From the NCBI RefSeq assembly GCF_041051975.1, contig NZ_CP163435.1, positions 496,001-560,000 on the forward strand: a stretch of DNA of 64,000 bases, in the 5' to 3' direction. This DNA is from Streptomyces sp. R21. GTDB lineage: Bacteria > Actinomycetota > Actinomycetes > Streptomycetales > Streptomycetaceae. Shown here piece after piece: positions 1 to 23,076 of the stretch; within the stretch, counting starts at the first letter, position 1; every line of letters starts with the position of its first letter. The position numbers and the translations under genes were made by a program. The notes beneath the pieces are model-generated. The model saw only the letters and a list, made by a program, of their open reading frames with translations, ran no database searches and was not told the DNA's origin.

Positions 1-15
1 CAGGGCGAGCCTCAT
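1..15 (-). CDS. Start of a further fucose-operon gene, cut by the window edge
   Basis: An ATG at 15-13 overlaps the TGA stop of the aldo/keto reductase gene in the ATGA arrangement used at other junctions of this operon. Only five codons (MRLAL) lie inside the window, so the product cannot be identified. By pathway logic, the enzyme not otherwise seen here is the lactonase that opens L-fucono-lactone, which would be an amidohydrolase-family protein; this is inference only. A mutarotase or another sugar enzyme would fit equally well. Confidence 0.35.
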
Positions 16-1022
16 GACGGTTCCTTCGACGACGTGGCTACGGGGACGGGGGTGCCCGGGGTCAGCAGGTCCTCGGCGCGCAGTTCGTCCCACAGCGCGT
101 CCGGGATAGGGCGGCGCAGCTGTTCGACCGTGTCGCGCACCTCGAGTGGGGAGCGGGCGCCGGTCAGGACGCTCGCTACCGCGGGGTGGCCGAAGGGGAA
201 GCGCAGCGCGGCGGCGCGCAGCGGCACGCCGTGGCGCTCGCACACCGCCAGCAGGCGCAGCGCGCGGTCGAGCACCGGCCCGGGCGCGGGGGCGTAGTCG
301 TATGTGGCGCCGGGCCGGGGGGCGGTGAGCAGCCCGGAGTTGAAGACCCCGCCGATCATGACGCTCCGGCCGCGGGCGGCGGCCTCCGGCAGCAGTTCGG
401 TGAGGCCGTCCTGGTCCAGCAGGGTGTAGCGGCCGGCCAGCAGCACCACGTCGATGTCGGTCTCGCGCAGGAAGCGGGCGGGCAGCGCGGACTGGTTCAT
501 GCCGACGCCGATCGCCCCGACCACGCCTTCGGCACGCAGCCGCTCCAGCGCCGGGTAGGCCTCGCGCAGGGCCTGCTCGGCATGCTCGTCCGGGTCGTGC
601 AGCAGGACGATGTCGACCCGGTCCAGTCCGAGGCGGTCCAGGCTCGCCTCCAGCGAGCGCAGGACGCCGTCGGCGGTGAAGTCCCAGACGCGGCGGTGGG
701 TGGCCGGGACGGCGAAGCCGTCGGCGAGGTCGTCACCGGCCCCGCCTCCCGGGTTCGGCACGAGCAGCCGGCCCACCTTGGTGGAGACGGTGTACGTGTC
801 CCGGGGGCGGCCGCGCAGTGCCGAGCCGAGCCGCCGCTCCGACAGGCCCAGCCCGTAGTGGGGTGCGGTGTCGAAGGTGCGGATTCCGGCGTCCCAGGCC
901 GCCTCCACGGTGGCGAGGGCGGCCTCGTCGGTGACCGGCTGGTAGAGGTTGCCGAGGCCCGCGCAGCCGAGCGCGAGCTGCGTGACCTCGACCGTGCAGC
1001 CGCCCAGCGTGGTGGTCCTCAC
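12..1022 (-). CDS. Aldo/keto reductase, probable L-fucose (D-threo-aldose) 1-dehydrogenase
   Basis: 336-residue protein of the aldo/keto reductase fold. The catalytic tetrad is visible: D51 and Y56 (FDTAPHYG), K82 (STKVG) and H142 (LLHDPDEH). It resembles the D-threo-aldose 1-dehydrogenase/L-fucose dehydrogenase branch, which oxidises the sugar at C1 to the lactone with NAD(P). The GTG start at 1022 overlaps the stop of the upstream SDR gene (GTGA), so translation is probably coupled. Its place between a 2-keto-3-deoxy-fuconate-type dehydrogenase and the next gene supports the first oxidative step of non-phosphorylative L-fucose catabolism. The exact sugar preference (fucose, galactose or arabinose) cannot be read from sequence. 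Confidence 0.85.
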   Translation of the reverse strand: MRTTTLGGCTVEVTQLALGCAGLGNLYQPVTDEAALATVEAAWDAGIRTFDTAPHYGLGLSERRLGSALRGRPRDTYTVSTKVGRLLVPNPGGGAGDDLADGFAVPATHRRVWDFTADGVLRSLEASLDRLGLDRVDIVLLHDPDEHAEQALREAYPALERLRAEGVVGAIGVGMNQSALPARFLRETDIDVVLLAGRYTLLDQDGLTELLPEAAARGRSVMIGGVFNSGLLTAPRPGATYDYAPAPGPVLDRALRLLAVCERHGVPLRAAALRFPFGHPAVASVLTGARSPLEVRDTVEQLRRPIPDALWDELRAEDLLTPGTPVPVATSSKEPS

Positions 1023-1777
1023 GACTGGGCCGCCGGGCGCAGCCGTAGCCCCTGCATGCCGCCGTCCACCGCGAGCGCGGTCCCGGTGACGCTGGCCGCG
1101 GCGGGACTCGCGAGGTAGACGATGGCCGCGGCGACCTCGTCGGCGGTGACCAGACGGCCCATGGGCTGGCGGGCGTTGAGCGCGGCACGCTCTGCTTCCG
1201 GGTCGTCGGCGGCGTCCAGCAGCCGGCCCACCCAGGGCGTGTCGGCGGTGCCGGGGTTGACGCAGTTGACGCGGATGCCCTCGCGGACGTGGTCGGCGGC
1301 CATGGCCAGGGTGAGGGACAGCACGGCGCCCTTGCTGGCGCAGTACAGGGCGCGCTGTGGAAGGCCCGCGGTGGCGCCGATGGAGCAGGTGTTGACGACG
1401 GCCGCGTGCGCGGACCGCCGCAGATGGGGCAGCGCGGCGCGGGTGGTGCGGACGATGCCGAGGACGTTGACGTCCAGGACGCGGTGCCACTGCTCGTCGG
1501 GGTTGTCCTCGACGGTACCGATGGCGCCGATGCCCGCGTTGTTCACGAGGATGTCGATGCCGCCCAGCCCGGTGGCCGCGGCCTCCACGGCGGCGCGCAC
1601 CGAGGCGTCGTCGCTCACGTCGGCCTTGAGGCCGAGCAACGGCTGTGGCACACCGGCGGGTTCGAGGTCGAGTACTGCCACCGCCGCGCCCCGCGCGGCC
1701 AGCGCGCGGGCCGTGGCGAGCCCGATCCCGGCAGCGCCTCCGGTGACGACCGCTCTGAGACCTGACAGATCCGTCAT
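1019..1777 (-). CDS. SDR oxidoreductase, probable 2-keto-3-deoxy-L-fuconate dehydrogenase
   Basis: 252-residue classical short-chain dehydrogenase. The cofactor motif TGGAAGIG lies at residues 12-19, NNAG near residue 80, and the catalytic triad is S132, Y145 and K149 (YCASK). The ATG start at 1777 overlaps the TGA of the fuconate dehydratase gene (ATGA), with AGGAGG just upstream. In the route through L-fuconate, an SDR oxidises 2-keto-3-deoxy-L-fuconate to the 2,4-diketo acid, which an FAH-family hydrolase then cleaves. Both partner enzymes are encoded immediately upstream, which is the main reason for this specific call; the SDR fold alone would not decide the substrate. Confidence 0.85.
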
Positions 1778-21467: not shown

Positions 21468-23033
21468 GTGAACAGCACGACAATGGGCCTGTTTCACCAC
21501 AGGGAACACCCAGGGAACGGTGAGCAGGCGAACGCTCCCGCCGACTTGGAAAACAGGCAGGGCAGCGGACGCAGACGCCTCCGTACCGCCCGGCGCCTCA
21601 TCGCCGGCTCCGCGACCCTGGCGCTGCTGGGACTACTGACCGGCGGCGTCGCCCATGCCGCGTCACCTGCGCCGGCCGCCGAGGCGGCGGCGAATACCAG
21701 CCAGTTCCGGGGAGTGAACTGGGCAGATCCCAACGACAACTTCATCACCGGCCCGAACGTCCCCGTCGGCCTGTCGACTTCGGACGACTACGCCACCGTG
21801 TACAAGAAGTCCACGGCCATCCTCAAGGGCTTCCAGAACCTCGGGGCCAACACCGTCCGCATGGGATTCAACGCGGCGACCACCTCGGGATCCTGGTGGG
21901 GCAGCTACACCGGGACGCTGGACGCCGCCACCGCACTGGGCATGAAGGTCATCGTCGCTCCCTGGCTGCAGAACGGGAAGGTCAGCGACACCGCGTCCTT
22001 CTACCAGATGTGGGACACGATGATCAACAAGTACGGCACGAAGAGCAACTTCTACTTCGACATCATGAACGAGCCCTGGGCGTACAACGCCACCGACCTG
22101 CCGAACTTCGAAGCCGACTGGCTGGCGCACTACCCCAGCCTCCCCCGTGACCACGTGATCGTCCCCGGCCAGTGGGGCGACGCGAGTCTGTGCGGTATCG
22201 GTGCCGACTCCCGGCTGTCCGGCACCCTGCTGTCCATCCACACCTACAGCATGTTCGGCGTCTCCCACAGCACCGAGGCCGACTGGGTCAAGGAGTTCAC
22301 CGACAACCTGTGCGGCTACGCCGACCGCGCCGTGGTGACCGAGTTCGGCGACCCGATGACCACCGGCGTCGACTACAACGGCCCCAAGGACGGCACCAAC
22401 AACAGATCCTTCCTCTACGCCATCACCGACACCGCACGCAGCCTCGGCATCGGAACCGTCCTGTGGACCGGCGTCAAGGAAGCCGGCCAGACCCAGGGCC
22501 CCGGCCCGTGCGACAACGCCTCCTGCGCCATCACCTCCCTCAACGGCAGCGGCACCAACCTGTCCCTGACCGTCACCAACCAGTCCGGACTCGACCGCCT
22601 CCAGTGGGGCTGGGGCACGGGCACCAACCCCGGAGGCGGAAGCGGCACCGGCACCGCACTGCGCGGCGCCGGCTCCAACCGCTGCCTGGACGTGCCCGGC
22701 GCGAGCACCACCAACGGCGTGCAGACCCAGATCTGGGACTGCAACGGCGGCACCAACCAGCAGTGGAACTCCACCTCCGCCAAGGAACTGCGGGTCTACG
22801 GCAACAAGTGCCTGGACGCCGCCAGCTTCGGGACCTCCCCGGGCACCAAGGTCGCCATCTATGACTGCAACGGCGGCAGCAACCAGCAGTGGAACCTCAA
22901 CAGCGACGGCACCATCACCGGCGTCCAGTCCGGGCTGTGCCTGGACGTCTCCGGAGCCTCCACCGCCAACGGCGCCCTCGTCCAGCTGTGGACCTGCAAC
23001 GGCGGCACCAACCAGAAATGGAACAAGCAGTAG
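21468..23033 (+). CDS. Secreted GH5 glycoside hydrolase with CBM13, second tandem copy
   Basis: 521 residues from GTG 21468 behind AAGGAG. It is a near duplicate of the preceding gene, sharing leader, signal peptide, catalytic glutamates (E202 in FDIMNEPW, E292 in VVTEFGDP) and CBM13 domain. Differences cluster at NEPWAYN versus NEPHTYT beside the acid/base and at [10 protein letters not shown] versus [10 protein letters not shown], both near the expected active-site cleft, which may alter substrate or product preference. Even the ribosome site and the flank just upstream are repeated. Both copies probably act on the same galactan backbone. Confidence 0.88.
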
Positions 23034-23045
23034 CGAGGAAGAAAA

Positions 23046-23076
23046 CGTGCCGGGGGTTCGGTGAGCCCCCGGCACG
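23046..23076 (+). terminator. Terminator after the second GH5 gene
   Basis: Perfect 11-bp stem: CGTGCCGGGGG (23046-23056) pairs with CCCCCGGCACG (23066-23076) around a 9-base loop, 12 bp after the stop codon. The T run is minimal, as is common in Streptomyces. It closes the glycoside hydrolase cluster; 23077-23338 holds no recognisable gene. Confidence 0.65.

Follow-up and report, generated by a model that had tools for sequence, protein, structure and literature searches.

The window analysed here is a 64,000-nucleotide stretch of the Streptomyces sp. R21 chromosome (positions 496001-560000 of a 10.03-Mb genome), and its left end belongs to a gene island that probably serves the use of fucose-bearing glycans: apparently secreted glycoside hydrolases (GH) of families GH29, GH59, GH54 and GH5 and a GH141-like protein stand beside a sugar transporter and an L-fucose pathway, and their promoters would join two regulons. 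Shared operators make it likely that the island genes are switched on together. More tentatively, as a set of proposals that we hold possible and no firmer, an actinobacterial branch of GH141 (linked to CBM13 or PDZ domains) would represent a novel kind of fucose release from plant glycans, with a fucose operator before the gene in all four of the other genomes looked at; fucose use would be split between two paralogous GntR switches whose operators differ by one base (CATCSGATG and CATCCCATG) and meet in the island; and L-lactate would be burned in place by lutABC.

Genes were called over chromosome 460001-560000 and assigned to families by Pfam and NCBIfam scans. Every gene named in an earlier, sequence-only reading of this DNA was recovered at its position, and its view of the island as fucose-centred is borne out by dehydratase, lactonase and mutarotase families and by the three GH29 genes and the single GH141-like gene that the extended island holds (Table 1).

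Two operator motifs

The first operator model, M1, was learned from the intergenic regions between FAH and transporter genes of 16 relatives, with the R21 genome left out, and is palindromic (gngATtCATCSGATGaATcnc). In the 100 kb of the R21 chromosome scanned, eight M1 sites score above 15 bits, where second-order Markov sequence would give 0.2. All eight are intergenic, and seven lie in island promoters: four between the genes for FAH and the sugar-binding protein (SBP), one before each of two upstream GH29 genes, and one between the GH141-like and GH29 genes. Genome-wide, the pattern with one mismatch occurs at 38 places, compared with 6 for the reversed control, and three of these fall in the gap that separates a divergent GH29 pair at 9.857 Mb. 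At the 29 best-scoring GH29 loci of congeners, M1 stands upstream in 13 and downstream in none, and at 12 of the 13 loci a site is no more than 172 nt from the called start; it occurs at 0 of 20 GH59/GH30 control loci. A conserved palindromic operator thus precedes regulator-linked genes, as in an FCD-GntR regulon. An initial motif, drawn from the island's own intergenic regions, was rejected as a CBM13 coding repeat only.

The second model, M2 (ATACATsssATGTAT), was learned from promoters of a second transporter in other genomes and from two operon leaders. Both M2 sites of the divergent promoter between the GH141-like and GH29 genes, which read CATCCCATG and CATCCCATC, differ from the CATCSGATG core, and a further M2 score of 18.3 bits lies before an upstream GH29 gene. 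Ten distinct M2 sites exceed 14 bits in the same 100 kb (0.2 expected, or 0.4 counting both strands), several of them being cross-scoring M1 sites and one (57485) lying outside the island. In 10 Mb the pattern WNMATCCCATSNWT occurs 7 times and its control not once; four of the seven adjoin glycosidase or fucose genes. Elsewhere in the genome, M2 is found at a GH54-GH27-GH54-GH39-like-GH59-GH29 operon at 1.21 Mb (21.1 bits), at a second fucose cassette at 8.80-8.82 Mb (22.8, 21.5 and 18.9 bits), by genes for GH62, GH30, GH2 and BNR-repeat CBM13 proteins, and also at places with no known glycosidases (435103, 7834451 and 9703513). Seven of the nine GH29 genes of R21 belong to presumed units with an M1 or M2 site at the head.

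Conservation of M2 can be followed in relatives, where the GH54/GH59/GH29 operon has an M2 leader in all seven examined (four full versions and three shortened; two of the seven were used in M2 training and five were not). These seven are among 15 congener GH59-family loci, 8 of which were hand-picked from the top of the homologue list; the other eight loci have no M2 leader. The remote operon of R21 (L126:3724-16298, ending in GH29-CBM13; relatives L148, L149 and L238-L242) is an arabinogalactan-type set, and in the shorter versions one or more of GH27, GH54 and GH39 are missing.

Candidate regulators

GntR1, the FCD regulator encoded beside the transporter, has the recognition helix LSRNSLREAVRAL. 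The same helix recurs in a GntR paralogue at 8.063 Mb that has an M1 site (20.5 bits) in front, and GntR2, encoded by the last gene of the second fucose cassette (8.817 Mb), has the helix LSRNLAREAVKAL. The helices fit M1 for GntR1 and M2 for GntR2 but prove neither pairing. Among the open-access papers searched, we found none on GntR regulation of L-fucose catabolism in Streptomyces.

The paralogue at 8.063 Mb (L132:6500-13880) adjoins ABC-transporter-like genes. The second cassette (8.802-8.818 Mb; L128:3740-13998 and L144:1-5738) carries three M2 sites and runs from a CE2 esterase-GH29 pair to transporter, FucD, lactonase, FucU, zinc alcohol dehydrogenase, SDR, KDPG aldolase, PfkB kinase, aldo/keto reductase (AKR) and GntR2 genes; the presence of a kinase and an aldolase points to a route with a phosphorylating end, for which L-galactose may be the substrate.

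Fucose catabolism and lactate

Neighbouring genes of the catabolic operon share 4-10 bases, and the operon extends past the window start into genes for a RhaM-type mutarotase, a fuconolactonase, LutA, LutB and LutC, followed by two more GH29 genes. The dehydratase belongs to the enolase superfamily and matches L-fuconate dehydratase 1yey with an E-value of 1.2e-202 and 677 bits, compared with 78 bits for rhamnonate dehydratase; it is 92% identical to that of its closest named relatives, Streptomyces, among the matches listed. The best PDB matches of the AKR are L-galactose dehydrogenases (E 3e-33), and L-fucose is 6-deoxy-L-galactose. For the SDR, none of the 25 NCBIfam models listed reached its cut-off. 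The lactonase (PF04909) scores 240 bits with the L-fucono-1,5-lactonase model NF052480 (cut-off 400), and the FAH protein scores 314.6 bits with NF053535 (cut-off 500); it is nearest to 2,4-didehydro-3-deoxy-L-rhamnonate hydrolase, so that pyruvate and L-lactate would be expected as products. Mutarotase, sugar dehydrogenase, lactonase, ketodeoxy-acid dehydrogenase and FAH are thus linked at the level of families, and the gene set would likely degrade L-fucose to pyruvate and L-lactate by the non-phosphorylative route.

The lutA, lutB and lutC genes are adjacent, with LutB above the TIGR00273 cut-off (453.3 versus 444.8 bits) and PF02754 and PF02589 present, as in LutABC lactate oxidation. Judged from this gene content, L-lactate from fucose is probably oxidised by the lutABC of the same operon. 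Of the related loci, 70 exceed 20 kb; lutB was present at 9 of the 29 that have FAH and at none of the 41 that lack it (Fisher p 1.5e-4, uncorrected for kinship); loci without FAH may have it elsewhere, and a second FAH copy exists in R21. Among the open-access papers searched, we found none joining fuconate dehydratase with LutABC.

An FAH paralogue (L142:2914-3777, 6.266 Mb) lies apart from fucose genes and has an M1-like site of 16.4 bits directly upstream. A second lutABC (L136:3-6065, 0.983-0.989 Mb) lies behind genes for an aldolase-SDR fusion and an FGGY kinase, and the group may be a rhamnose operon, with M1-like matches (16.1 and 12.5 bits) within the lutA-like gene.

Neighbours were counted (above 35% identity, 50% cover) at 80 fuconate dehydratase loci among the matches listed, 10 of which are no longer than 20 kb. 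AKR was found at 73 loci, SDR at 73, lactonase at 60, the transporter at 53, GntR at 63, FAH at 33 and LutB at 9, and the three GH29 types at 4, 3 and 1; GH59, GH141, GH54 and GH5 were found at none, although 10-kb flanks at the island's spacing would reveal GH59 but not GH29_A, GH54 or GH5. The earlier suggestion that the arrangement is uncommon in Gram-positives has to be given up for the link between transport and pathway, which these counts show to be widespread in Streptomyces and which was predicted from genome context, for a Streptomyces among others, in 2017 (PMC5583593).

The glycosidases

The GH141-like protein is a parallel beta-helix whose most similar structure belongs to GH141 (BT_1002, 5mqp; 20% identity). 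Sequence alignments to 5mqp stop before the region of the catalytic D523/D564 of BT1002; in the modelled piece, D448, D460, D470, D499, D520, D522 and D523 are invariant in 30 sequences. Homologues with E below 1e-60 occur in at least 4 of 245 congeners, at 5 places (one genome has a second copy), and at the one locus examined per genome M1 lies upstream, about 40-220 nt from the called start, in 4 of 4. The genes around these four loci are unrelated, with no fuconate dehydratase within 20 kb, and each 20 kb holds no further M1 site above 15 bits. Many of 120 GH141-like homologues (120 of 808) have a PDZ domain, in place of which the window protein and its four closest relatives have CBM13.

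Signal-like N-termini of the glycosidases were judged by eye. GH59 matches galactocerebrosidase 4ccc (E 3.6e-81); its homologues with E below 1e-120 occur in at least 54 of 391 congeners, the closest being 57% identical. The GH29 of the window matches structure 9lxl (E 9.3e-187) and then 4ni3 (E 6.1e-184), an enzyme that we take to be fungal and active on xyloglucan. GH5a and GH5b share 87% identity over the catalytic part and match PF00150 and no GH30 model in Pfam. A structure model of GH5a of moderate quality (pLDDT 73.0) matches mostly entries described as endoglucanases; GH30 is absent among the 50 structural matches listed for it, which is no proof against GH30, and the names of GH5 homologues gave no information. 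The reading of this pair as endo-beta-1,6-galactanase is therefore not supported, its presumed reference, Sa1,6Gal5A of S. avermitilis, having been moved from GH5 to GH30 (PMC4052742). Among the open-access papers searched, none joined GH59 with galactanase. When 8600-23300 was scanned for sigma-70 promoters and terminators, no signal rose above that of shuffled sequence.

Proposed mechanism and alternatives

We propose as the likely explanation that the apparently secreted enzymes would strip fucosylated plant arabinogalactan, likely arabinogalactan-protein, and that the sugar ABC transporter beside the glycosidase genes would feed a pathway degrading L-fucose to pyruvate and L-lactate, the lactate being oxidised by lutABC. 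GntR1 would repress by binding M1 until fucose or an intermediate of the pathway releases it, and M1 would govern the genes for transport and catabolism together with the two GH29 genes upstream. The GH141-GH59 and GH29-GH54-GH5-GH5 arms would start at the divergent promoter with two M2 sites, read by the paralogous GntR2, which would also govern the second fucose cassette and the remote GH54/GH27/GH39/GH59/GH29 operon. In this view two related regulons meet in the island, of which one serves fucose and the other an arabinogalactan-type glycan carrying fucose. Of the target first proposed, fucosylated arabinogalactan or arabinogalactan-protein, the fucose part stands and the GH5 step is not supported; type II arabinogalactan is inferred because the GH54-GH27-GH54-GH39-like-GH59-GH29 operon shares M2 with the island's glycosidase arm. 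That substrate reading remains reasonable with this one leg unsupported, and the new elements are the link through regulation, the coupling to lutABC and the prediction for the GH141-like protein.

Several observations weigh against this explanation. At chromosome 462802 an M1 site scoring more than 15 bits falls outside the island; of the 38 M1-pattern places, many are within or close to genes that have no known connection with fucose; and three of the seven M2-pattern places have no glycosidase gene next to them. M1 and M2 cross-score (the GH141/GH29 site near 15408 reaches 16.7 bits under M1), and the split between two regulators is therefore not proven; a third, less similar GntR with another helix (L157) also stands beside an M2-type site. 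The case for M2 in the island comes from a single genome, no orthologous divergent promoter having been found, and the four GH141-like homologues elsewhere have M1, not M2. Scans with both motifs found no operator for GH54, GH5a or GH5b themselves, and co-transcription of GH29-GH54-GH5-GH5 is assumed across intervals that reach 337 nt, or about 220 with a GH54 start at 18090. Lactonase and FAH fall short of their equivalog cut-offs, the FAH-lutB statistic takes no account of relatedness, and the island lacks genes for exo-1,3-galactanase (GH43), GH27, glucuronidase and rhamnosidase.

The locus could instead be of mixed origin, with cooperating fucose genes and with GH59, GH54 and GH5 as chance neighbours acting on substrates of their own (arabinoxylan, beta-glucan). 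GH59 is absent within 10 kb at all 80 listed fuconate dehydratase loci (GH54 and GH5 would fall beyond the flanks), and fuconate dehydratase is absent within 20 kb at the 15 GH59 loci of congeners examined; the operator-less GH54 and GH5 genes, the endoglucanase-like GH5 model and the transposase remnants after the last GH5 gene point the same way. We nevertheless consider mixed origin unlikely: the divergent promoter of the arm has two M2 sites, and GH59, GH29 and GH54 recur under M2 in the remote operon and in 7 relatives. Another fucosylated polymer as the target, be it xyloglucan, rhamnogalacturonan II or a fucan, seems to us improbable indeed. To our knowledge GH59 and GH54 suit neither xyloglucan nor fucan, and the island proteins scanned include no sulfatase family, although 4ni3 is the second-best structure for the window GH29, and GH141 members are described as acting on rhamnogalacturonan II and as endo-fucanases in PMC10154630 and PMC12786026.

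If the fucosylated arabinogalactan reading holds, it predicts a testable regulon for fucose-glycan use in Streptomyces, with one regulator and one 15-bp operator, gives the uncharacterised GH141 branch a concrete substrate class, and points to a possible coupling of plant-glycan breakdown to a complete deoxy-sugar route, lactate included.

Table 1. Features of the island, in window positions unless marked as chromosome positions
Feature	Position	Strand	Evidence or remark
GH29-F5/8-CBM13	chromosome 486354-488285		beyond lutABC, outside window
GH29-CBM13	chromosome 489795-491600		beyond lutABC, outside window
RhaM-type mutarotase	1..15 (5' end); gene at chromosome 495704-496015	-	PF05336, E 9.3e-21
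AKR, likely L-fucose 1-dehydrogenase	12..1022	-	PF00248
SDR, likely 2-keto-3-deoxy-L-fuconate dehydrogenase	1019..1777	-	PF13561, E 8.6e-57
L-fuconate dehydratase	1774..3126	-	1yey match
FAH-family hydrolase, likely 2,4-diketo-3-deoxy-L-fuconate to pyruvate + L-lactate	3123..3974	-	PF01557, E 8.7e-68
Four M1 sites	4087, 4147, 4242, 4566 (4087..4586)		divergent FAH/transporter promoter; 26.0, 25.0, 15.0, 26.2 bits
CUT2-type SBP	4816..5865	+	PF13407, E 1.5e-48
CUT2-type ABC ATPase	6000..7613	+	PF00005, two stretches
CUT2-type permease	7616..8659	+	PF02653, E 3.2e-35
GntR/FCD regulator GntR1, likely M1 reader	8747..9448	+	PF07729, PF00392
GH59, apparently secreted, likely beta-galactosidase-type	9542..12391	-	PF02057, E 3.4e-98; start tentative
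GH141-like parallel beta-helix enzyme with CBM13, predicted fucose-releasing	12444..14981	-	probable start near 14981
Two M2 sites	15276, 15410 (15276..15426)		divergent GH141/GH29 promoter; M2 14.9, 21.3 bits; M1 11.2, 16.7 bits
GH29-CBM13	15641..17869	+	PF01120, E 4.3e-85; twin-arginine-like leader
GH54-CBM13, alpha-L-arabinofuranosidase family	18090..19634	+	PF09206, E 1.4e-160; start tentative
GH5-CBM13 (a), candidate glycosidase	19706..21262	+	PF00150, E 5.8e-12
GH5-CBM13 (b), tandem paralogue of GH5a	21468..23033	+	PF00150, E 5.2e-11
Transposase-like fragments (winged-helix type, OrfB_IS605)	23253-25943		island's right edge, after last GH5 gene

Comparison with known systems

The L-fuconate dehydratase of Xanthomonas campestris (1yey; Yew et al. 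2006, as cited in PMC5583593) is matched over almost its whole chain, although it comes from another phylum. The arabinogalactan-protein enzymes SaArap27A, Sa1,6Gal5A and Sa1,3Gal43A of S. avermitilis are a secreted set for type II arabinogalactan (PMC4052742), as is proposed for the island, and the remote M2 operon of R21 contains a GH27-type CBM13 protein; Sa1,6Gal5A is placed there under GH30, whereas the window pair is not GH30 by Pfam. A close counterpart of the pathway is fclABCDE of Bifidobacterium longum and Streptomyces sp. HGB0020 (Ravcheev and Thiele 2017, PMC5583593), which takes the same route to pyruvate and lactate and has predicted fucose ABC transporter genes clustered with those of the pathway, the likeness being one of clustering. 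The island differs from it in adding lutABC to the operon, glycosidases for plant glycans, and two operator motifs.

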